From: a virus
Length of the DNA: 64,000 nucleotides
IMG/VR virus record: IMGVR_UViG_3300039191_000589
Coordinates: 46,098 to 110,097 of that record
Direction: 5' to 3' (one strand)
The notes below the pieces were generated by a model. It made no database searches. It was not told the origin of the DNA and was given only the letters and a program-made list of their open reading frames with translations. Positions 18,066 through 43,586 of this stretch are shown piece by piece (positions within the stretch are counted from its first letter, which is position 1; every line of letters starts with the position of its first letter). A program made the position numbers and the translations under genes.

Positions 18066-19004
18066 ATGAATCTTGACAAAACTGCATTAACGAATAGTAA
18101 TGCATTTAGTAATATAGCTAATGGAGATGGTGGTGCTGCTCAAGGTGGCGGCGAAGGAATGTCGGATGAACAAAAAGAATATTTAATTGCAAAGGCGTTA
18201 GAAACTGAAGAAGGACGAAGTGCTTTAGCACAAGCAATGGCTAATCCAATTAGAACTTCTTTGGATTATCAAGGTGTAGGAAGAAAATTATTAGTGGTAG
18301 ATCCATTACCACAAGGTGCACTACCTGTTTATGATAAAGATGTAGATGCAAAAGCATTTACAATTAGTAAACGTGGTAAAGCTCCTGATCAAATTATTGA
18401 AGGAGACAGAATTCAAGTACCAACTTTTGAAGTTGTTTCTTATCCACAAGTTAGATTTAGTCAAGTTAAAGAAAGACGATTTAATGTTATTGATCGTGCT
18501 CAACAACGTGCTAAATCTGATATTATGGCTGTTGAAGATGAAAACATCTTTAATTTAATTGATTCTGCAGCTACTTCTGTTAATCCTAAAACAGTTTCAA
18601 CAGGTGGATTAACAAGAGACGCTTTAACTCAAGCATTTAAAGAAATTGAAAAGCATGATTTAGTAGTTACTAAGATTGTAATGAATGCTACTACATTTGC
18701 TGATATTAGAGCTTGGGGACGAGACGAATTTGATCCAGTTACTCAACATGAAGTATTACAAACTGGTTTATTCGGACATATCTGGACTGCTGATATTTTA
18801 ATTAGTAAGAAAGTTCCTCAAGATACAGTTTACGTATTAGCTGATCCTGAATTTGTTGGGGTAATGCCTATTCGTCAAGATATTCAAGTTATTCCTGCTG
18901 ATAAACCTGAAGAATTACGACTTGGTTGGGTTATTTATGAGGAAATTGGATTATCTGTTGTTAATGGTATGGCTGTTGCAAAGATTGAAATAACTAATAC
19001 TTAA
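18066..19004 (+). CDS. major capsid protein (HK97-fold type)
   Basis: ATG with TTGGAGGTGC ahead. 312 residues. After an N-terminal arm with a Gly/Ala-rich stretch, RTSLDYQGVGRKLLVVDPLP begins the fold. GDRIQVPTFEVVSYPQVRFS (about residues 118-138) is the E-loop/P-domain strand area, RAQQRAKSDIMAVEDENIFN (about 145-165) the long spine helix, and the end (RLGWVIYEEIGLSVVNGMAV) the last beta strands, a layout typical of phage capsid subunits. Codons are better balanced than in neighbours, consistent with high expression. Preceded by the decoration-type gene. Confidence 0.85.
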   Translation: MNLDKTALTNSNAFSNIANGDGGAAQGGGEGMSDEQKEYLIAKALETEEGRSALAQAMANPIRTSLDYQGVGRKLLVVDPLPQGALPVYDKDVDAKAFTISKRGKAPDQIIEGDRIQVPTFEVVSYPQVRFSQVKERRFNVIDRAQQRAKSDIMAVEDENIFNLIDSAATSVNPKTVSTGGLTRDALTQAFKEIEKHDLVVTKIVMNATTFADIRAWGRDEFDPVTQHEVLQTGLFGHIWTADILISKKVPQDTVYVLADPEFVGVMPIRQDIQVIPADKPEELRLGWVIYEEIGLSVVNGMAVAKIEITNT

Positions 19005-31702: not shown

Positions 31703-32578
31703 ATGAAGATTCAAAGTTTATCAATTGATGTTCCAGCATCTTGTCCAAATGATTGTCGTTTTTGTGTTGCACATATGCATCGTGAAGATTATATAAATCA
31801 CATTGAAGATAATCATAGATTTAGACATCTTTATAAAGATGACTATAAAAAAAGATTATTATTTGCTAAAGATAATGGATGTAATACTATTGTTCTCACA
31901 GGTAATGGAGAGCCTTTAGCAAATCGTAATTTTCTTCAAAATTTTGCTGAATGGAATTCTAATTTACCTGACCCTTTTTATTGGATAGAATTACAAACAT
32001 CAGGTGTTTTATTAGATGATGAATATTTAAGATTTTTAAGAAATGAAATAGGGGTTAGTACTATTAGTTTATCTTTATCAAGCATTTTTAATAGTGATAA
32101 AAACGCAGAATATAATCAAACACCACAAAAATTAAAAGTTGATATTGATGAAATATGTAGTGAAATTAAAAGGTATGATTTTAATTTAAGGCTTTCACTA
32201 AATATGACTGATGTATATAATAACGTTCCTGTTAAAGAAATTTTTAATAGAGCTAAAGAATTAAAAGCTGATCAAATTACTTTTCGAGAATTATATATAT
32301 CTAATAAAAATAGTAATTGCAAACAAAATAAATGGATAAAAAAACATCGTTGTAATCCTGAAAAAATTGTTGAAATTGAAAAGTATATTGAAGATAATGG
32401 TATTGAATTACAAATTCTTCCTTTTGGTGCTATTAAATATTCTGTTCATAATATATCTACTGTATTAGATATTGATTGTATGTCAACTCAAGTAAAAGAT
32501 GTGGTAAAATATTTAATATTAAGACCTAATGGTAAATTATATAGTTCTTGGGCAGATAAAGGTAGTTTAATTTTTTAA
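31703..32578 (+). CDS. radical SAM superfamily enzyme
   Basis: ATG with AGAGGAGG at 31688-31695. 291 residues. The 4Fe-4S motif CPNDCRFC (C14, C18, C21) is the CxxxCxxC of radical SAM enzymes; it is followed by LTGNGEPLANRNFL (the GGE-type SAM-binding strand, about residues 72-85), and ISLSLSS and ITFRELYIS strands of the barrel. The enzyme cleaves S-adenosylmethionine to make a radical. The substrate cannot be told: a second set of cysteines is limited (C near 211, 221 and 262), and queuosine partners such as QueC/QueD are not in the window. QueE-like or an orphan modification enzyme are options. Confidence 0.85.
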   Translation: MKIQSLSIDVPASCPNDCRFCVAHMHREDYINHIEDNHRFRHLYKDDYKKRLLFAKDNGCNTIVLTGNGEPLANRNFLQNFAEWNSNLPDPFYWIELQTSGVLLDDEYLRFLRNEIGVSTISLSLSSIFNSDKNAEYNQTPQKLKVDIDEICSEIKRYDFNLRLSLNMTDVYNNVPVKEIFNRAKELKADQITFRELYISNKNSNCKQNKWIKKHRCNPEKIVEIEKYIEDNGIELQILPFGAIKYSVHNISTVLDIDCMSTQVKDVVKYLILRPNGKLYSSWADKGSLIF

Positions 32579-33752: not shown

Positions 33753-34421
33753 ATGGCAGGGTGGGGAGAATTAATTTTTGGATCAATGTATAGTGGTAAA
33801 TCTGAGGAATTAATTAGAAGATTAAAAAGAGCTCAATATGGTGGTCAACAATATAAATTATTTAAACCAGAATTAGATAATAGATATAGTAATAATAAAG
33901 TTGTTACTCATGAAAATAATGATATTACACAAAATGTAAATGATGTTTTAGAATCACATTTAGATAGTAAAGTAAAGAAACATTTAGTACAAAGAATAAC
34001 TGAAAATTTATCAGGATCATTAGTAGCACATTCAGTAAAAAATGCTGAGGAAATTTTAGATTTAACTAGGGATAATATTGATGTTGTTGGCATAGATGAA
34101 GTTCAATTTTTTGATGAAGATTTAATTAAAGTAATTGATAAACTAATAAAAAAAGATATTAGAGTAATTATGGCTGGATTAGATTTATACTCTTCTGAAG
34201 AACCTTTTGGTATTGTTCCTAAATTAGCTTGTAAAACAAAATATGTTGATAAATTACATGCTGTATGTGTTGATTGTGGAGAAAATGCTTACATTTCTCA
34301 TAAAATTGATAATAATAATGATAATAAAAAATCTAATATAGATGTGGGAAGTACTGGAAAATATATTCCATTATGTAAAACATGTAGAGAAAAGAGATTA
34401 AAAAATGAAAAGACTACTTAA
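33753..34421 (+). CDS. tdk: thymidine kinase (type II)
   Basis: ATG with AAGGAGG at 33740-33746. 222 residues. P-loop GSMYSGKSEELIRRL (10-17 core), IDVVGIDEVQFFDEDL with the catalytic Glu and magnesium Asp, IMAGLDLYSSEEPF lasso area, and zinc cysteines CVDC and CKTC. It phosphorylates thymidine to dTMP with ATP, complementing the dUTPase at 21367. A loop between the Cys pairs is lengthened by Asn/Asp/Lys. The end overlaps the next gene by 17 bases. Confidence 0.93.
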   Translation: MAGWGELIFGSMYSGKSEELIRRLKRAQYGGQQYKLFKPELDNRYSNNKVVTHENNDITQNVNDVLESHLDSKVKKHLVQRITENLSGSLVAHSVKNAEEILDLTRDNIDVVGIDEVQFFDEDLIKVIDKLIKKDIRVIMAGLDLYSSEEPFGIVPKLACKTKYVDKLHAVCVDCGENAYISHKIDNNNDNKKSNIDVGSTGKYIPLCKTCREKRLKNEKTT

Positions 34422-35852: not shown

Positions 35853-35892
35853 TATATAATAATAAGGTATAAACTATAAAATAACCATTTAA

Positions 35893-35922
35893 GATCACCC
35901 AATAAAGGGTGGTCTTTTTTTA
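35893..35922 (+). terminator. rho-independent terminator
   Basis: GATCACCC pairs with GGGTGGTC around AATAAA, followed by TTTTTTTATT. Confidence 0.88.
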
Positions 35923-35955: not shown

Positions 35956-35976
35956 TTAGTAATAAATTAGTAATAA
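35956..35976. repeat. two 10-base direct repeats upstream of the TubR-like gene
   Basis: TTAGTAATAA occurs at 35956-35965 and again at 35967-35976, one helical turn apart. In type III partition systems TubR binds short repeats (tubC) upstream of tubR; this pair is a candidate, but two copies in AT-rich DNA are weak evidence. Confidence 0.3.
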
Positions 35977-36040
35977 TTAAGAAACAATCGAATAGATATA
36001 TACTAAATAAGGTAAAAAAATGAAAAGAGGTGTTAAAAAA

Positions 36041-36355
36041 GTGTTTTGTGAAGATTGTTTGGTTAATGTTATTATTCCTAAGTTAAAAGATAATGATTTG
36101 CTTATCATGGAATACTTATACAATCATGGAATTACACTTCCCCAAACAAGTAAAATGCAAGATGAAATCATTGAAGAAACTGGATTATCAAATTTTAAAG
36201 GATGGAAAGCTGTATATAGTTTAAGATGTTATAATTTAGTTAAAAAAATTCAAAAAGGCCGTGCAAATTATTATTACCTAACAAAAGATGGTAAAAGAGC
36301 ATTGAGCATTTTTTCTGAGCAAATTGCTAATGAGCATGCTGAACAAGAGGTTTAA
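36041..36355 (+). CDS. tubR (candidate): winged-helix DNA-binding protein, TubR-like
   Basis: I prefer GTG 36041 because AGAGGTG at 36026-36032 is correctly spaced; the upstream ATG 36020 would place this site inside the gene. About 104 residues: helices LLIMEYLYNHG and TSKMQDEIIEETGLSNFKGW, recognition area KAVYSLRCYNLVKKI and a wing KGRANYYYLTKDGKRAL. Size, winged-helix layout and position just before tubZ match TubR, which binds the centromere and represses its operon. CEDC near the start may bind a metal. Confidence 0.65.
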   Translation: MFCEDCLVNVIIPKLKDNDLLIMEYLYNHGITLPQTSKMQDEIIEETGLSNFKGWKAVYSLRCYNLVKKIQKGRANYYYLTKDGKRALSIFSEQIANEHAEQEV

Positions 36356-36393
36356 TAATTTATTTTAATAAATCATTTAAGGAGGAAGATAAT

Positions 36394-37590
36394 ATGCTTA
36401 AATTTGGAATGTTGTGCTTAGGTCAAGGTGGAGGAAATATTGGTGAATATGCTTATACGAAGAACTTTGAGGTGGTAGTAGCTAATACTGCTAAAGTGGA
36501 TTTAAAACAGTTAAAGTATATTCCTGAAAATGATCGTATTCATTTAGGTGGACATGGTGCTGGTAGAGATAGACAAGTTGGTGTTGATGCTTTTATTGAA
36601 AATGCTGAAGAAATTTATGAAAAATGCCTTAATAAGTTTGAAGATTGTGATGCTGTATTTGCCGTTGGAACTGGTGGAGGTGGTACTGGATCAGGAGCAT
36701 TACCTGCAGCACTTGAAATGTTATCTAGTACATTTAAATATGTAGGCTGTATAATTGGATTACCAGCTAAAAATGAAGCACCTAGGGCCCAAATGAACAC
36801 TGTAGAATGCTTTTCAGAATTATCTCAATTAAATGAATTAGGATCAGTATTTATTGTAGATAATGAGGAAACAAAAAAGATGAACCCTAATACTTCACGG
36901 AGAGATATTTATCGACTTACTAATCGCCGACTTATAGATTGTCTTAACGAACTTAATCAATTAACGGATAAAATGTCTTATGTTGACAATTTTGATGCTA
37001 ATGATTTATTAAGTATTATTCAAGAACGTGGCTATACTCATATCACTAAAACTAGTTATTATCCTACCAATAGTGAAAATAAATATAATATTTCTGAGAA
37101 AATTAGAAAAAGTTGGGAAAAAAGCTATCAACCTAAATTTGATCTTAGCACTGTTGTAAAAGGAGCTTTAATTGGGATAATCCCTGAAGAAATATCTATT
37201 GAAGTTGAAAGTGATTTAATCTTTAAGGATAATGGTCTCCCTTATGATTTCAAAGATATATATTTTCGTCCTAATCCTAATGAATTAGAAAAAAAGGCTG
37301 GCAAATCTAAAAATACCTTTTATACTTTATTGTCTGGATTAAAGTTTCCTCAGTCTAGATTGGATCAAATTAAAAATGATATTAATAAGGTTGAAGATAA
37401 GTTAGTTAATAATTATAAAAATTCAGTAAACCAAAAAATTAAAAGTCAAAGTTATAATAGTAAATTTTCCCAAAGTGGATCCCCAATGTCTCATAAATTA
37501 AACAATTTAAGATCAAATAATAATAATGATGATGGAAAAAAGAAAAAAATGAACGTAATGGATCAACTATCAAAATATCGTGAAAAATAA
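36394..37590 (+). CDS. tubZ: TubZ-like tubulin/FtsZ-family GTPase (plasmid/phage partition)
   Basis: ATG with AAGGAGGAAG ahead. 398 residues. GQGGGNIGEYAY (residues about 9-20) is the first phosphate loop, GGGGTGSG (94-101) the tubulin signature, GLPAKNEAPRAQMNTVECFSELSQ gives later nucleotide-pocket helices, followed by VFIVDNEE and helix NRRLIDCLNELNQLTDK. The end is a basic, Asn-rich tail (GKKKKMNVMDQLSKYREK), as in TubZ where the tail contacts TubR. FtsZ differs by its acidic conserved tail. TubZ filaments treadmill and move the replicon in low-copy plasmids and phage-plasmids such as c-st. Confidence 0.85.
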   Translation: MLKFGMLCLGQGGGNIGEYAYTKNFEVVVANTAKVDLKQLKYIPENDRIHLGGHGAGRDRQVGVDAFIENAEEIYEKCLNKFEDCDAVFAVGTGGGGTGSGALPAALEMLSSTFKYVGCIIGLPAKNEAPRAQMNTVECFSELSQLNELGSVFIVDNEETKKMNPNTSRRDIYRLTNRRLIDCLNELNQLTDKMSYVDNFDANDLLSIIQERGYTHITKTSYYPTNSENKYNISEKIRKSWEKSYQPKFDLSTVVKGALIGIIPEEISIEVESDLIFKDNGLPYDFKDIYFRPNPNELEKKAGKSKNTFYTLLSGLKFPQSRLDQIKNDINKVEDKLVNNYKNSVNQKIKSQSYNSKFSQSGSPMSHKLNNLRSNNNNDDGKKKKMNVMDQLSKYREK

Positions 37591-37595
37591 AGTAG

Positions 37596-37622
37596 AAAAG
37601 GGGGTATAATCCCCCTTTTTAC
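37596..37622 (+). terminator. rho-independent terminator after tubZ
   Basis: AAAAGGGGG pairs with CCCCCTTTT around TATAAT, 5 bases after the tubZ stop. Confidence 0.88.
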
Positions 37623-37674: not shown

Positions 37675-38091
37675 ATGAATCAGAAAAAAATAATTATAAT
37701 TTTATTATTATTGTGTTTATTTGTAAATTGTTCAATTGCATTAGGTAATAATGGAAATAATAAAAAAACTAATAATAAACAACAATCTAAAATCAGTATT
37801 CCTGATTCTGTTCCAGATGAATATATTGATGAATATATTAGACAGTCTAAAGCCCTTAGAAAAGCAATTGATTATCTTGATTTTATTGTTGAGTTAATTC
37901 GTTTAGCTGCCGCTGCTTATTTAGGACTACATGTAACAATTATAGGTTATCAAATTTACCGTTTAGATAATGGAATAGAACATTCTAAACAAAATTTTAA
38001 AAAAGCTGCTTATGGCTTATTCTTTGTATTTTGGGGCCAAGCATTGGCAAATTGGTTTATGGCAAAATTATTTGATATACTTTTTGGATAG
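37675..38091 (+). CDS. VirB2/TrbC-type pilin-like membrane protein
   Basis: ATG with GGAGGTTG ahead. 138 residues. An N-terminal signal peptide (KKIIIILLLLCLFVNCSIALG), a short polar segment, then two hydrophobic helices (about residues 68-93 with LIRLAAAAYLGLHVTIIGYQ, and about 108-138 with YGLFFVFWGQALANWFMAKL). Size and layout equal type IV secretion pilin subunits. It is first in a run of membrane proteins and ATPases of conjugation type, which supports the call. Confidence 0.6.
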   Translation: MNQKKIIIILLLLCLFVNCSIALGNNGNNKKTNNKQQSKISIPDSVPDEYIDEYIRQSKALRKAIDYLDFIVELIRLAAAAYLGLHVTIIGYQIYRLDNGIEHSKQNFKKAAYGLFFVFWGQALANWFMAKLFDILFG

Positions 38092-38103
38092 GAGGCGGCA
38101 GTA

Positions 38104-38256
38104 ATGCTTAACAATTGGGATGAGTTATTATATGAAATCTCAACTATTCTTTTTGGATTATGTTGTGGGCTAATGGGGTTTGTTGTAACTTATTATTTAT
38201 TAGGTTGGATAGGTGATTTTATCATAAAAGTAATTTTAAGGGGGTTACTAACATGA
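38104..38256 (+). CDS. 50-aa membrane protein in type IV secretion block
   Basis: ATG with AGGAGGCGG at 38090-38098. One hydrophobic helix (FGLCCGLMGFVVTYYLLGW) flanked by charged ends. The stop overlaps the next ATG (ATGA), so the two are coupled. Too short for a family call. Confidence 0.6.
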   Translation: MLNNWDELLYEISTILFGLCCGLMGFVVTYYLLGWIGDFIIKVILRGLLT

Positions 38257-38378
38257 TTTTTAATATTTTAAGAATTACTTTCTCTTTTACAGTGGGAGTT
38301 TATTGTTTTCAATTTGCAATTAAAAAATTTCATAATTTTTTTAGAAGTAATAGGGATGAACACTATAAAATTTATTAA
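38253..38378 (+). CDS. 41-aa membrane protein in type IV secretion block
   Basis: ATG at 38253 overlapping the stop of the previous gene; ribosome site AAGGGGG at 38238-38244. An amphipathic to hydrophobic helix (ILRITFSFTVGVYCFQFAI) then a basic tail. Followed 15 bases later by the VirB6-like gene. Confidence 0.55.
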   Translation: MIFNILRITFSFTVGVYCFQFAIKKFHNFFRSNRDEHYKIY

Positions 38379-38393
38379 AGAGAGGGGTTAAAT

Positions 38394-39302
38394 ATGCCTG
38401 ATAAAGCATTAAAATTATTAGAAAAAATATCAGGAGTGTTAGATAAATTTTGGACATTTATTACTAACATTCCTGAAAAAGCTTATGATTCTTTAGCTTA
38501 TATTATGAAAGAAATGGTTGATTTATTAATTAAATTTCCTAGAATTACATCATTTCCTGAAATTATTGAAGTGTGGCAAGTAGTATTAGTATTATCACTA
38601 TCTATGTTAGGATTAGTATTTATTTATATAGCAGTGCGTAATAGAATATCTTTGAATAGTAATATTATTAGATCAATTGAAATCAAACAAGTTATTGCTA
38701 GAACTTTTTATATGGGCTTTTTCATTATTTTGAGTAGAACCTTTGTAGATTGGCTTATTATGTTAAACAATGTATTAATTAATGTATTAATGCATCATTT
38801 TGATATTCGAAAAGTAATAGATCACATTGGTAATTCTCATTTTGGGAAAGATATAATAGCAACCGCAATAATAGGGTATCAAATATACCTAGTTGTGTGG
38901 ATTATGATTCAATATTGGTTAAGAGTTACGGAAGTATTAGTGATGTATGTTTCTAGCCCTGTTATGTATTTATTATGGGTTAATCCAGAGTGGGGAGGGT
39001 ACTTATCTAGCTGGTTAAAACGAATTAGCTCATTAATTTTTACACAATTAGCTCAAATACTAATATTAATTATTCATGGGCATTTAGTTTTTAAATTTTT
39101 TGTTTCAGGATCAATTTCAAGTTTAGCTTTAGGGGTAGCTGGATTAATTTTAATGAAAAAAACTCCAGCCTTTTTTAAAATGTTTATTGCCCAAACAAAT
39201 TCATTGCAAATTATGACGGGGACTTATGATAAAATTTCTAATTCTAATACTGTTAAAAAAATTAAAAATAAAATGTCAGGGGGTAATGATGACGATGAGT
39301 AA
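38394..39302 (+). CDS. VirB6/TrbL-like polytopic membrane protein
   Basis: ATG with AGAGAGGGG at 38379-38387. 302 residues with about six to seven hydrophobic helices, including VVLVLSLSMLGLVFIYIAV, TFYMGFFIILSRTFVDWLIM and VVWIMIQYWLRVTEVLVMYV, a YLLWVNPEWGGYLSSWLKR loop and an acidic cytoplasmic tail (GGNDDDE). This is the architecture of the Gram-positive conjugation channel protein (VirB6/TrbL). It sits directly ahead of VirB3- and VirB4-like genes in the normal order. Confidence 0.65.
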   Translation: MPDKALKLLEKISGVLDKFWTFITNIPEKAYDSLAYIMKEMVDLLIKFPRITSFPEIIEVWQVVLVLSLSMLGLVFIYIAVRNRISLNSNIIRSIEIKQVIARTFYMGFFIILSRTFVDWLIMLNNVLINVLMHHFDIRKVIDHIGNSHFGKDIIATAIIGYQIYLVVWIMIQYWLRVTEVLVMYVSSPVMYLLWVNPEWGGYLSSWLKRISSLIFTQLAQILILIIHGHLVFKFFVSGSISSLALGVAGLILMKKTPAFFKMFIAQTNSLQIMTGTYDKISNSNTVKKIKNKMSGGNDDDE

Positions 39303-39588
39303 AGATAAATTATCAACTTGGATTCCGCGAAATTTAAATGAGGAAGATAAAATTGATTTAGGTTTTGGTATTAAATTAACTTGGTCCAATTTACCTTTAA
39401 TTCTAGGAGGAGGAACAATGGGGTATCTTTTATCTACAAAATACAATGATTTCTTAATGAAAACAGCAATTATTTTAATGTGTGTAGTTCCTCCTTATGT
39501 ATTTTGGAAAATAGCTCTTAATGAACAGAATCCAATTGATGTAATGTGGAATATGATAATTTTTATAAGAAAATTATTAAGGGGGTAA
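39289..39588 (+). CDS. VirB3/PrgI-like membrane protein
   Basis: Several ATGs (39286, 39289, 39295) follow AGGGGG (39278-39283); 39289 or 39295 fits best. About 100 residues: TWIPRNLNEEDKIDLGFGIK, then two hydrophobic helices around LPLILGGGTMGYLLS and FLMKTAIILMCVVPPYVFWK, the paired-helix form of VirB3/PrgI proteins that always precede VirB4. Overlaps the VirB6-like gene and ends 4 bases before virB4. Confidence 0.65.
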   Translation: MTMSKDKLSTWIPRNLNEEDKIDLGFGIKLTWSNLPLILGGGTMGYLLSTKYNDFLMKTAIILMCVVPPYVFWKIALNEQNPIDVMWNMIIFIRKLLRG

Positions 39589-39592
39589 TAAT

Positions 39593-41284
39593 ATGGTGAC
39601 GGTTAATACTAATATTCATAATGGTAATCAAATTGGTATAATAGAAATTGAACCAACTAATATTTTAATGAAAGATGAAGATTATAAAATTCAAATAATG
39701 GAAAATTTCAAAAAACTAGTAAATTCAATTAATACTTCAATTCAAATATTGTGTAGCAGTGATAATTTTAGTAGTAATAAATTTAGTATTGAAGGGTATG
39801 ACGAATATAATACTTTAATTAATAATAAAATTAATAACGTTGTAAAAAAGAAATTTAAAATAATAGTAAATAATGATGATGAGAGTATATTGAGAAATAA
39901 TTTAAAGACTATTAAAAGACATTTAAAATCTTGTAGCATACAATGTAGCGATTATAAAATTACTACTTATGATAATATTTGTAGTGATGAATTAAATGTG
40001 GACTATATGCAAATTAATGATCAATATGTTAAAACGTTTTATGTAACTGATTATCCTCATAGTTGTTCTTTTGGGTGGTTAAAAGATATATATAATAGTG
40101 AATTAAATGTAGATATTAGTTTCTTTATTCATCCTGTATCAAAATCTGATGCTGAAGAATATTTAACAAAAAAATTAAATCAAAACACCTCTAATTCTTC
40201 ATTAGAAGATGAAAAAGATGTAGTAAATGATAAATATGATGAACGAATTAATAGTGCCATTAAAATGAGAAAACAATTAAGAAAAAACAAATGTAAATTC
40301 TTTTTTACATCCTTTTATATAACATTAAAGGCTGATAATATCAACCAATTAAACCGCGAGAGTGAATATCTGAGGACATTAATGTCAGGTTTAAATGTTA
40401 ATATTAAAAATAGTTATTTACGCCAAGAGGATGCATATAAGTGCACTAGAGCCTTTGGGAGAGATGTATTAGAAAAATATTATAATTTAACTACTAAACA
40501 ATTAGGGTGCTTTTTTCCATTTACCAATTCAAATATTATTGATAAGAAAGGAATATTGGTTGGGGATAATATTGTGAACTCCAGTTTGGTTTTTTTAGAT
40601 CCTTTTAAATACGATTCTTATTTAATGTTTATCATTGGAAAAGTAGGTGGGGGAAAGAGTTATTTATCAAAATTATTATGTTTAAGATTACTACAAAAAG
40701 GAGTAAAAATTGATATTTTTGATAAAGAGGGGGAATATTTACAATTAAAAGAACTAACCAATTCACCAAATTTACGGGTTCATAATTATAATAATTATTC
40801 TGATTACCTTCCTATGTTAGAAAGATATGTGTATGATATGGATAATAATAATGAATTACAAAAAAGGATGTTATTTATAGATGAATTTTGGCAATTTGTT
40901 GATAACACTAATAAAGAATTTTTAGAGTATGTTAAATATATTACTCTTACTTCACGAAAAAAACATCAAGCATTATGTGCTATTAGCCAAGAAATAGAAC
41001 ATTTATTAGAAACCCCAGAAACTTATACTATTATAAAACAAGCAAGTATTAAAGCTCTTATGAAGTCAGAACCAAGTGAGGCTAGAATGATAAAAGAGGA
41101 ATTAAATTTAACTGAGTCTGAGGTTAATTTTTTAATTTCCGCTGATAATGAAGGTTTATTATTAGCTGATAATAAACAGGTTCAATTTAAAGCTTTATCT
41201 ACAGATAAAGAAGATAAAATTATTACTACTGATCCTTCACAAATTTTACAATTAAGAGAGGAGGGTAAACGTGGGATTATTTAA
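39593..41284 (+). CDS. virB4: VirB4/TraC-family type IV secretion ATPase
   Basis: ATG with AAGGGGG at 39579-39585. 563 residues. The N-terminal domain (about 1-330) carries a long Asn/Lys-rich part; the ATPase part has IGKVGGGKSYLSKLL (Walker A 349-356), IDIFDKEGEYLQL, RMLFIDEFWQFV (Walker B near 426-433), TSRKKHQALCAISQE and the end motif VNFLISADNEGLLLA. This is the standard VirB4 C-terminal half. It energises pilus or channel assembly. It is somewhat shorter than usual VirB4 (about 600-800). Overlaps the next gene by 14 bases. Confidence 0.9.
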   Translation: MVTVNTNIHNGNQIGIIEIEPTNILMKDEDYKIQIMENFKKLVNSINTSIQILCSSDNFSSNKFSIEGYDEYNTLINNKINNVVKKKFKIIVNNDDESILRNNLKTIKRHLKSCSIQCSDYKITTYDNICSDELNVDYMQINDQYVKTFYVTDYPHSCSFGWLKDIYNSELNVDISFFIHPVSKSDAEEYLTKKLNQNTSNSSLEDEKDVVNDKYDERINSAIKMRKQLRKNKCKFFFTSFYITLKADNINQLNRESEYLRTLMSGLNVNIKNSYLRQEDAYKCTRAFGRDVLEKYYNLTTKQLGCFFPFTNSNIIDKKGILVGDNIVNSSLVFLDPFKYDSYLMFIIGKVGGGKSYLSKLLCLRLLQKGVKIDIFDKEGEYLQLKELTNSPNLRVHNYNNYSDYLPMLERYVYDMDNNNELQKRMLFIDEFWQFVDNTNKEFLEYVKYITLTSRKKHQALCAISQEIEHLLETPETYTIIKQASIKALMKSEPSEARMIKEELNLTESEVNFLISADNEGLLLADNKQVQFKALSTDKEDKIITTDPSQILQLREEGKRGII

Positions 41285-43586
41285 TAATTTTAAACAACAA
41301 AAAGGAGAAAAATTTAATTCAGAGTGTTTTAAAATTAATTTTGATATTAACCGAAAATCAATTGAAGAATACCAAATGATGTTAAGTAATATCTATGGTT
41401 TACAGTTTATTAATAAACATGAATATACCCCTAAATTTACTTTTGGAATTATTGTTGAAGAAGATCAATATGATTTTTATGCTGTTTGTCCTGAGGAATA
41501 TAGTAATATCATTAAAGAACAACATAAGATAATACACCCACATATTAGATATTCTTCTTTTAATGACCCTCTGAAACAATTTGAAAATTATTTAAGTAAT
41601 GGTAAAATGCATTATATTAGTGGATACAGGTTAATGTTAAATGATAATACTGATAAATCGATACAAACACCTAACAAATCAAGATTTTTATTAAATATTA
41701 TATCAAATATGATGGATGATAAATATAATGATAAAAGTATTTTTGAGATTACTTTTAAACCTATAAATAATAACAATAATATTAATAATAATAAAATATT
41801 AAATACATTAGATACAACTGTAAAAGGATTAAGTTATGCTATGGATTTTTTCTTTAATAGTAATTTAAGTGATCCTTATAAGAATAAAGAGAAAACAAAG
41901 ATTAAAGATAATAAAAAAGATAACAGCAATAAATTTACTGCAAAATTTAATGTTGATATAAAAATTATATGTAAATCTAAAAGTAAACAAAGATCTTTAG
42001 ATAAAGTTAAAAGTGTTAGTGCATCATTTTCTAATCTTAATAAAAATTCTAAATTTAATGCTATTAAGTTAAAACATGATGATATTATTAATCGTCAATA
42101 TAATCATAAAAATATATTAACTGTTGAAGAAATTTCTCAATTTATGCATTTGCCTCATGATATAGGTGAAGAAAATTATACTAGACTATATGATGATAGA
42201 GTACCAAGCAAAGGAATAGTATATGGTGATAGCAATGGTAAAGATGTAGCTTTTCCAATGGAAAAAATTAGCCCTGAAAATTATAGTAAAAAGTATAAAG
42301 AAATAGAAAAATATATTGATGATTTTTCTAAACCATTAGTAATTACAGGGCGTCAAGGTAATGGTAAATCAGAATGGATAGTAAATTTAGCAATAGCTGT
42401 AGCAAAATGTGGGATTTCAGTAATCATAGTAGACCCTAAAGTAGATACTCAAAAAAGATTTATAGAGAGTTTACCTAAAAGTGAAATGGATAGGTTAGAT
42501 TATTTAAATTATGGTGATTTAAGGCATCCTCCAGCTATGAATTTATTTCGACAAAGAAAAGATAATGATCCTATAGAAAATTCATTAATTACATCATCTT
42601 TTATTGCTTTAATGAAAAAACACTCACGCCACTGGGGATTTAAAATGCAAAGAATGCTCCAAAGAGCTTGTGAGGCTGTATTATTAAATCAAACAAGTAC
42701 ATTAAATGAATTAGATTTACTTTTAAATGATCCATTATTTAGAGAGCATATTATAGAAGTAATGGAAGGTAAACTAAATGATAATGATCAAAAAAATAAA
42801 GCCCATATAAGAAAATTATTAAGATATTGGAAAAAATTTCATAATGATGATCAAAAGGATATTGATAAAAAAATCGAACCAGCTATGAATGTTATTGGAC
42901 CATTTATAGATAATCAAATTATTAAGACAATAGTTGGCCAAGAAGAATGTTATGATTTTAGAGAAGCTGCTGATAATGGGAGAATAACTATTGTAAATAT
43001 TCCAGAAGGTTCGTTAGAAGAAAATACTAAAATATTATCATCAATTATCAATAAAAGAATTTGGTTAGATATGCAATCACGAGCTGATAGTGAATTAAAG
43101 GATCGTTATCCAACATTTTGGGTTATGGATGAAGCTCATGAAATTTTAGATGAGGAATTTACTGGTATATTAACAAAGGCACGTGCATATCGATTAGGAG
43201 TGGCATTAATTACACAAGGATTAACTAATTTTAGAAGTAGGGGAATGGATAATATGAAAGACTTAATAGAAACTAATTGTCAAAAGAAAATAACTTTTAA
43301 TATATCATCGTCTGAAAGTAGGCAATTAGCTGAAGAATTTGCTCCTTTGACTCTTAAGGATTTATCTAATTGTCCTAAATATCATTTTTATGCTAAAACA
43401 TTTTTAAAATCAGGGGAAATATCTGACCCATTTTTTGTTCACGCACCTTTACCAGCTAACAAAGAAAGGGATTATAATAAGTTTATTGAAAATCATAAAA
43501 AGGGGAGAAAAACAATGGAGGAAATTGAAATAGAGATTGAAGAGAGGATGGATCATATTAGAACAATGAATAAATTAAAGCAATAA
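41271..43586 (+). CDS. VirD4/TraG-like (HerA/FtsK-type) coupling ATPase
   Basis: GTG at 41271 with AGGAGGG at 41260-41266. 771 residues. The N-terminal 340 residues are variable. The motor domain has ITGRQGNGKSEWIVNLAIAV (Walker A about 360-367), SVIIVDPKVDTQKRF, TFWVMDEAHEILDEEFTGIL (Walker B DEAH about 620-623), LGVALITQGLTNFR and KKITFNISSSESRQLAEEF. This is the pattern of conjugative coupling proteins of Gram-positive elements, which hand DNA to the secretion channel. No N-terminal membrane helix is obvious, so HerA-like or packaging functions remain options. Confidence 0.8.
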   Translation: MGLFNNFKQQKGEKFNSECFKINFDINRKSIEEYQMMLSNIYGLQFINKHEYTPKFTFGIIVEEDQYDFYAVCPEEYSNIIKEQHKIIHPHIRYSSFNDPLKQFENYLSNGKMHYISGYRLMLNDNTDKSIQTPNKSRFLLNIISNMMDDKYNDKSIFEITFKPINNNNNINNNKILNTLDTTVKGLSYAMDFFFNSNLSDPYKNKEKTKIKDNKKDNSNKFTAKFNVDIKIICKSKSKQRSLDKVKSVSASFSNLNKNSKFNAIKLKHDDIINRQYNHKNILTVEEISQFMHLPHDIGEENYTRLYDDRVPSKGIVYGDSNGKDVAFPMEKISPENYSKKYKEIEKYIDDFSKPLVITGRQGNGKSEWIVNLAIAVAKCGISVIIVDPKVDTQKRFIESLPKSEMDRLDYLNYGDLRHPPAMNLFRQRKDNDPIENSLITSSFIALMKKHSRHWGFKMQRMLQRACEAVLLNQTSTLNELDLLLNDPLFREHIIEVMEGKLNDNDQKNKAHIRKLLRYWKKFHNDDQKDIDKKIEPAMNVIGPFIDNQIIKTIVGQEECYDFREAADNGRITIVNIPEGSLEENTKILSSIINKRIWLDMQSRADSELKDRYPTFWVMDEAHEILDEEFTGILTKARAYRLGVALITQGLTNFRSRGMDNMKDLIETNCQKKITFNISSSESRQLAEEFAPLTLKDLSNCPKYHFYAKTFLKSGEISDPFFVHAPLPANKERDYNKFIENHKKGRKTMEEIEIEIEERMDHIRTMNKLKQ

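Follow-up and report, generated by a model that had tools for sequence, protein, structure and literature searches.

A plasmid-type tubR-tubZ gene pair in a jumbo phage related to Bacillus phage G

Introduction

Bacillus phage G carries two adjacent genes, gp137 and gp138, with a thymidine kinase gene upstream and genes resembling type IV secretion system (T4SS) components downstream; in its GenBank annotation gp138 is labelled only as a 'putative FtsZ-like cell division protein' and gp137 is unnamed. Phage G lyses liquid cultures of B. megaterium and packages its genome of 497 kb, probably by a headful mechanism, as approximately 626 kb of terminally redundant DNA (PMC5646251). Pairs of tubR and tubZ genes, with tubR immediately upstream of tubZ, are borne by plasmid pBM400 of Priestia megaterium and by the plasmid of B. 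pumilus FUA2116, and the TubZRC system of Clostridium phage c-st is a phage-borne example. PhuZ of the phiKZ-like phages is also a tubulin of jumbo phages. Partition proteins alone do not guarantee replication as a plasmid and can serve in intracellular transport (PMC8026635), and the tubulin-like proteins of some jumbo phages have been attributed to segregation during pseudolysogeny (PMC7824862).

Here we describe a locus on a linear viral record of 110,097 bp where the gp137-gp138 pair of phage G recurs with its order and neighbourhood kept. The DNA analysed (the window) is a stretch of 64,000 nucleotides, bases 46098-110097 of that record. An earlier note on this DNA had read the two genes as a TubR/TubZ-like partition pair and had taken them as a sign that the replicon persists as a phage-plasmid.

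Results

Capsid type and gene order point to a jumbo phage related to phage G

The window has a GC content of approximately 25%, and its clear genes all lie on one strand. Capsid, portal and terminase, the phage structural genes present in the record, are of the G type and in collinear order, as in the phage-G-like (Donellivirus) group, with identities to phage G of 61% for terminase, 62% for portal and 85.6% for the major capsid protein. When ORFs from terminase onward were compared by tblastn with the first 100 kb of phage G, 30 ORFs of the record matched collinearly, running through terminase, portal, capsid, thymidine kinase, tubR, tubZ and VirB4/VirD4-like genes to approximately 55 kb in the window. 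As the capsid is of the G type and these 30 ORFs are collinear, we assign the replicon, from its sequence, to the jumbo phages related to Bacillus phage G (Donellivirus gee) and no longer regard it as an anonymous replicon bearing head genes; the 110-kb record is probably a fragment of such a genome.

Among 50,697 phage records (a set from which records very close to the window may have been left out, searched by tblastn, which misses distant TubZs) phage G was the only one with a relative of TubZ at E ≤ 1e-3. Three TubZ loci were found in IMG/VR, in phage G, a 156-kb contig and a 175-kb contig, and the viral contigs searched yielded no relatives beyond these; a scan of genome contigs gave a single match, in Natronomonas, at 29%. 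A search with the winged-helix (wHTH) protein alone returned exactly phage G and the same two contigs and, as both searches yielded the same three genomes, tubR and tubZ appear to have been co-inherited as a pair. In all four phages tubR is immediately upstream of tubZ in the same genomic place, and in phage G and both contigs a thymidine kinase gene lies upstream of the pair, within a few kb. The features of the locus are collected in Table 1.

Table 1. Features of the tubRZ locus and its surroundings. Coordinates are window positions unless another sequence is named.
Feature	Coordinates	Strand	Basis
Major capsid protein, phage G gp27 type, identifying the replicon	18066..19004	+	85.6% identity to phage G gp27
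Thymidine kinase gene	33753..34421	+	46.8% to phage G gp135; same position upstream in G and both relatives
Intrinsic terminator ahead of tubRZ	35891..35916	+	10-pair stem and T run
Direct repeat TTAGTAATAA x2, 11-bp period, candidate TubR site	35956..35976 (copies at 35956, 35967)	+	not above chance
tubR, TubR-family winged-helix DNA-binding protein, 104 aa	36041..36355	+	profile, predicted fold, start-site homology
tubZ, TubZ-family tubulin GTPase, 398 aa	36394..37590	+	profile, predicted fold, scores
Intrinsic terminator behind tubZ, closing the two-gene unit	37600..37614	+	terminator prediction
VirB2/T4SS-pilin-like small membrane protein	37675..38091	+	PF18895 E 0.098; G gp150 at same position 3.7e-6
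VirB6/TrbL-like polytopic membrane protein, G gp153 homologue	38394..39302	+	homologues in three relatives, E 2e-41 to 6e-33
PrgI/VirB3-like short membrane protein in an ORF open from 39226, exact start uncertain	39265..39588	+	position of the relatives' PrgI-like proteins
VirB4-type conjugation ATPase, G gp155 homologue	39593..41284	+	NF045975 6.5e-47 (below model cut-off); PF19044 2.4e-10
VirD4/TraD-like ATPase, G gp156 homologue	41271..43586	+	40-42% to G and both relatives; weak TraG-D_C, TrwB
Replic_Relax genes of phage G (gp146) and relatives	L005:18362-19186 (gp146); L010:13558-14391; L031:1342-2151	-	PF13814

Profiles and predicted folds place the two products with TubZ and TubR

The larger gene of the pair has the ribosome site AAGGAGG and encodes, as the earlier note had recognised, a tubulin-family GTPase with the signature loop GGGGTGSG and a basic tail. 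Its T7 motif, N-x-D-x-x-D, is intact (N199, D201 and D204) and invariant in the four phages; the homologues in phage G and the two contigs are 39-43% identical to the window protein (phage G, 43%). A profile built from the four phage proteins matched the B. cereus TubZ 4ei7 over nearly its full length (E 2.1e-33), with TubZ of c-st, CetZ and FtsZ next, and gave 158 bits for TubZ of the B. pumilus plasmid and 142 bits for that of pBM400, against 48 for E. coli FtsZ and a barely detectable 5.8 for phiKZ PhuZ. TubZ entries also headed the fold matches of the AlphaFold model (pLDDT 77), with 4ei7 first (Z 37.0; 336 residues at rmsd 2.4) and CetZ and FtsZ lower; c-st TubZ matched the fold at Z ~33. 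The basic motif at the C-terminus, DQLSKYREK in the window and SDRLTRFTK in phage G, resembles the tail of pBM400 TubZ (ILDKYQNR). The TubRZ proteins of pBM400 and B. pumilus have the same folds where these are solved, and similar basic tail ends.

Membership in the FtsZ family was rejected on the scores, the product reaching 62.5 bits against a cut-off of 295.2 for the FtsZ equivalog TIGR00065, and membership in PhuZ was rejected in the same way. In the tree a branch with 98/97 support joined the four phages to TubZ of Pontibacillus, pBM400 and B. pumilus, with the phage proteins grouped at 82/88; PhuZ also fell within this phage and plasmid set, on a branch so long that the tree by itself can neither place PhuZ nor exclude it. 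The earlier note had held beforehand that grouping with PhuZ or FtsZ would speak against TubZ, and neither grouping was seen on scores or on folds. We assign the protein, on profile and model, to the TubZ family, with GTPase motifs that are intact.

The smaller gene has an ORF open from an ATG at 36020 (111 aa), and a GTG at 36041 gives the 104-aa product. The GTG, chosen with its ribosome site in the earlier note, is supported as the better start by a Shine-Dalgarno sequence, GAGGTG, 8 nt upstream, and by phage G gp137 and the homologue of the 175-kb contig, both of which begin there, two residues ahead of the first Cys. As a single sequence the protein had ribosomal S10/plectin as its top Pfam match, a candidate displaced by TubR when the four-sequence profile was used: the top PDB match was then TubR of pBM400 (4asn, E 5.4e-8), with pBtoxis TubR weak, and among the plasmid proteins fetched TubR of pBM400 and of B. 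pumilus scored above threshold as the nearest matches. For the AlphaFold model (pLDDT 86), 4asn came first in Foldseek (1.6e-5) and also in VIA-align, which aligned 90 residues at rmsd 1.4 and Z 14.5, with the runner-up 1.7 Z units lower. Identity of the window protein to those of phage G and the two metagenomic phages was 27-35% (gp137, 29%). An N-terminal CxxCL motif, common to all four phage proteins and absent from plasmid TubRs, is a mark of the phage lineage.

On these profiles and models we place the wHTH protein in the TubR family. Profiles, predicted folds and gene order agree with plasmid TubRZ, and the reading of the pair in the earlier note, which had proposed structure prediction against TubR and TubZ as its check, was borne out. 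The label of gp138 in phage G is amended accordingly from FtsZ-like to TubZ, and the unnamed gp137 becomes TubR.

The pair is probably its own transcription unit and its upstream repeat is at chance level

As terminators were predicted on both sides of the pair, tubR and tubZ probably form a transcription unit of their own; hairpins resembling terminators, read directly, also lie ahead of tubR in the three relatives (phage G, L010 and L011). A small gene lies directly ahead of tubZ in all six of the Bacillales plasmid relatives that were fetched, and no tubR is annotated upstream of tubZ on the Pontibacillus megaplasmid. The search for a MerR-like TubY near tubRZ, made with MerR_1, a model that may miss TubY, gave no match in the record and, in phage G and one relative, only short frames of approximately 100 aa distant from tubRZ.

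The direct repeat upstream of tubR, which the earlier note had pointed out, does exist as a pair of copies of TTAGTAATAA, but it is at chance level and unconserved and so was rejected as a demonstrable centromere. When the interval was shuffled with a Markov model, 27% of the shuffles contained a repeat as long, as did 14% of all 167-bp tiles of the window and 21% of the AT-rich ones; the pair was one of 80 rows in a tandem-repeat scan of the window, where TTAGTAAT occurs at 21 places on both strands. The repeat was not found in the two metagenomic relatives, and phage G had one partial match. The space before tubR is 118 bp after the terminator in the window, compared with 462-641 bp in pBM400 and the B. 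pumilus plasmid, and only ~58 bp separate terminator and tubR in the 156-kb relative, so that a canonical iteron array upstream of tubR is not general in this lineage. A 14-mer, ATTATTATTTAGTG, is common to the regions upstream of tubR in phage G and the 175-kb relative (P ~0.005) and is absent from the window. As centromere sequences differ between known TubZRC systems and are not conserved (PMC7762940), a tubC site may lie elsewhere.

A type IV secretion-like module follows tubRZ

Downstream of tubRZ each of the four phages has a small T4SS-like channel module (window 37675-43586; phage G gp150-gp156). The homologues of its TrbL-like protein in the relatives match TrbL_4 (E 5e-11 to 6e-12), and both the TrbL-like and the VirD4-like proteins have homologues in all three relatives. 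The window's candidate PrgI-like protein itself had no domain match, and proteins at the same position in relatives matched PF12666 PrgI at 2.4e-5 and 2.1e-4, below the cut-off. The VirB4-type product matched the solved VirB4-like structure 4ag5 (2.2e-10) and is 31.7% identical to gp155; the PHROGs label for this VirB4-like family, 'terminase large subunit', seems to be a misannotation. One full-text search of the literature for a T4SS/VirB4 module in jumbo phages gave no relevant paper.

Phage G and both metagenomic relatives differ from the window in that a Replic_Relax gene (PF13814), encoded on the other strand, stands between tubZ and the T4SS-like set; this 110-kb record yielded none. 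This family also lies beside tubRZ on Planococcus and Paenibacillus plasmids, and it occurs in SPO1-like phages too, which weakens it as a sign of plasmid life. TrbC/VirB2 and Replic_Relax, without a partition motor, are reported in Bacillus phages Novomoskovsk and Bolokhovo (PMC9658697). The nearest plasmid TubZ by profile (224 bits) is on the 898-kb plasmid of Pontibacillus sp. ALD_SL1, with a VirB4-like gene ~27 kb away, and the phage block may have come from this megaplasmid or been passed to it.

Discussion

The window's pair adds to the TubRZ family, which is otherwise known from plasmids, as a genuine tubR-tubZ unit of a phage-G-like jumbo phage, and we think it probable that its products haul phage DNA in the cell. 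TubR dimers would bind a site on the phage genome, and TubR would probably also repress its own promoter; through the basic C-terminal tail of TubZ, TubR would hook this DNA site to treadmilling TubZ filaments, which would then haul the DNA through the cell. The most likely role of tubRZ is thus the movement of phage DNA within the host cell. Positioning or spreading replicated phage genomes during infection would be the likelier use, and faithful partition of a long-lived, plasmid-like carrier state a second. As the closest relatives outside the phage group are on Bacillales plasmids, the unit itself is probably of plasmid origin, judging by these matches.

Persistence as a low-copy circular episome, partitioned at cell division by TubRZ and an upstream centromere as in c-st, was the life style proposed in the earlier note; it overlaps with the second of these uses, and we consider it rather unlikely. 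The protein family is that of plasmid TubRZ, and the FUA2116 plasmid of B. pumilus, among the nearest carriers of tubRZ, is itself phage-like, with holin, tape measure, tail and YonK genes; together with the attribution of jumbo-phage tubulins to pseudolysogeny (PMC7824862), this plasmid leads us to keep a carrier state open at that lesser chance. So do the plasmid-flavoured neighbours, T4SS-like genes and, in the relatives, Replic_Relax, which adjoin tubRZ as they do on some tubRZ plasmids. Against an episome, the replicon is phage-G-like and phage G is lytic, with headful-packaged, terminally redundant DNA (PMC5646251), and a G-like capsid was not found among 72,556 plasmids, where the sole match was a Streptomyces protein at 27.5%. 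Unlike c-st, a plasmid prophage with a Xer-type recombinase (PMC8026635), none of the four phages yielded a tyrosine or serine recombinase (PF00589, PF00239), phage G being searched complete and the other three records being fragments, a criterion tempered by the fact that not every plasmid prophage has one. With the upstream repeat at chance level and the space for a canonical centromere missing in one relative, a phage-plasmid life style of the window phage is not supported. A spindle of the PhuZ type, in which the tubulin would keep a phage nucleus centred, as it does in phages like phiKZ, with the wHTH protein an unrelated regulator, is suggested by the tubulin being that of a jumbo phage, in which PhuZ is the known use (PMC7950403); it is highly improbable given the gap between 5.8 bits for PhuZ and 142-158 for plasmid TubZ, and the TubR homologue immediately upstream in every one of the four phages.

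TubZ might alternatively serve another cargo or a host-directed role, such as capsid transport, interference with host division or coupling of DNA to the type IV channel at the membrane. The T4SS-like module is constantly near in the four phages, and some Clostridia chromosomes have TubZ and TubY without TubR, probably for a purpose other than segregation (PMC7762940). We regard such a role as improbable, as co-conservation of TubR favours DNA as the cargo, and tubZ is probably transcribed separately from the T4SS-like genes, from which unrelated genes divide it in phage G. We also hypothesise that the whole block of tubRZ and T4SS-like genes may be of common plasmid origin. That the phage-G lineage uses such a plasmid-derived block as a unit, consisting of the TubRZ motor, Replic_Relax in most members and a minimal pilin/TrbL/PrgI/VirB4/VirD4 channel, with TubRZ bringing genomes to the membrane channel or partitioning them in a carrier state, is a speculative extension with a small chance of being right; if true, apparently lytic giants could also spread or persist in a plasmid-like manner, perhaps one resembling conjugation.

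The tubulin of phage G, a classic giant phage with a 497-kb genome, thus moves from its FtsZ-like label to the TubRZ family of plasmids, and a partner that binds DNA can be recognised for it. Use of a plasmid-type motor to move DNA has become directly testable in a jumbo phage with a tubulin other than the phiKZ-type PhuZ. As four related phages keep this motor next to a secretion-channel module, one may further ask what use a lytic giant has for plasmid machinery.

Other features of the record

Several recurrent sequences were seen elsewhere in the record. The peptide MKRLI[KR]K[SA] starts several otherwise different proteins (L004: 3887, 9327, 10157 and 13468; window 15790 and 19124), is present once in each sampled region of the relatives, and recalls a putative targeting or capsid-internal tag. 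Four small proteins that otherwise differ have a short motif, [KN]KRKI[FS][ILM]L, close to the C-terminus (L003: near 6251, 7536 and 7857; L004: near 5943). Regions L002 and L003 (record bases ~6,700-32,000) contain dozens of genes for proteins of ~80-110 aa, many in tandem, whose C-termini follow a common pattern like '...KNKxxAxxAKEWLESxxIxxKM'; they form a large expansion of paralogues. Host-like metabolic or cell-surface genes were found at L003:8624-9997, L004:138-1394, L004:13607-14458 and window 31703-32578, and comprise a Na+/H+ antiporter (PF03553, 1.9e-31), an alpha-amylase (7.5e-16), a subtilase (4.2e-39) and a radical SAM protein (1.1e-13).
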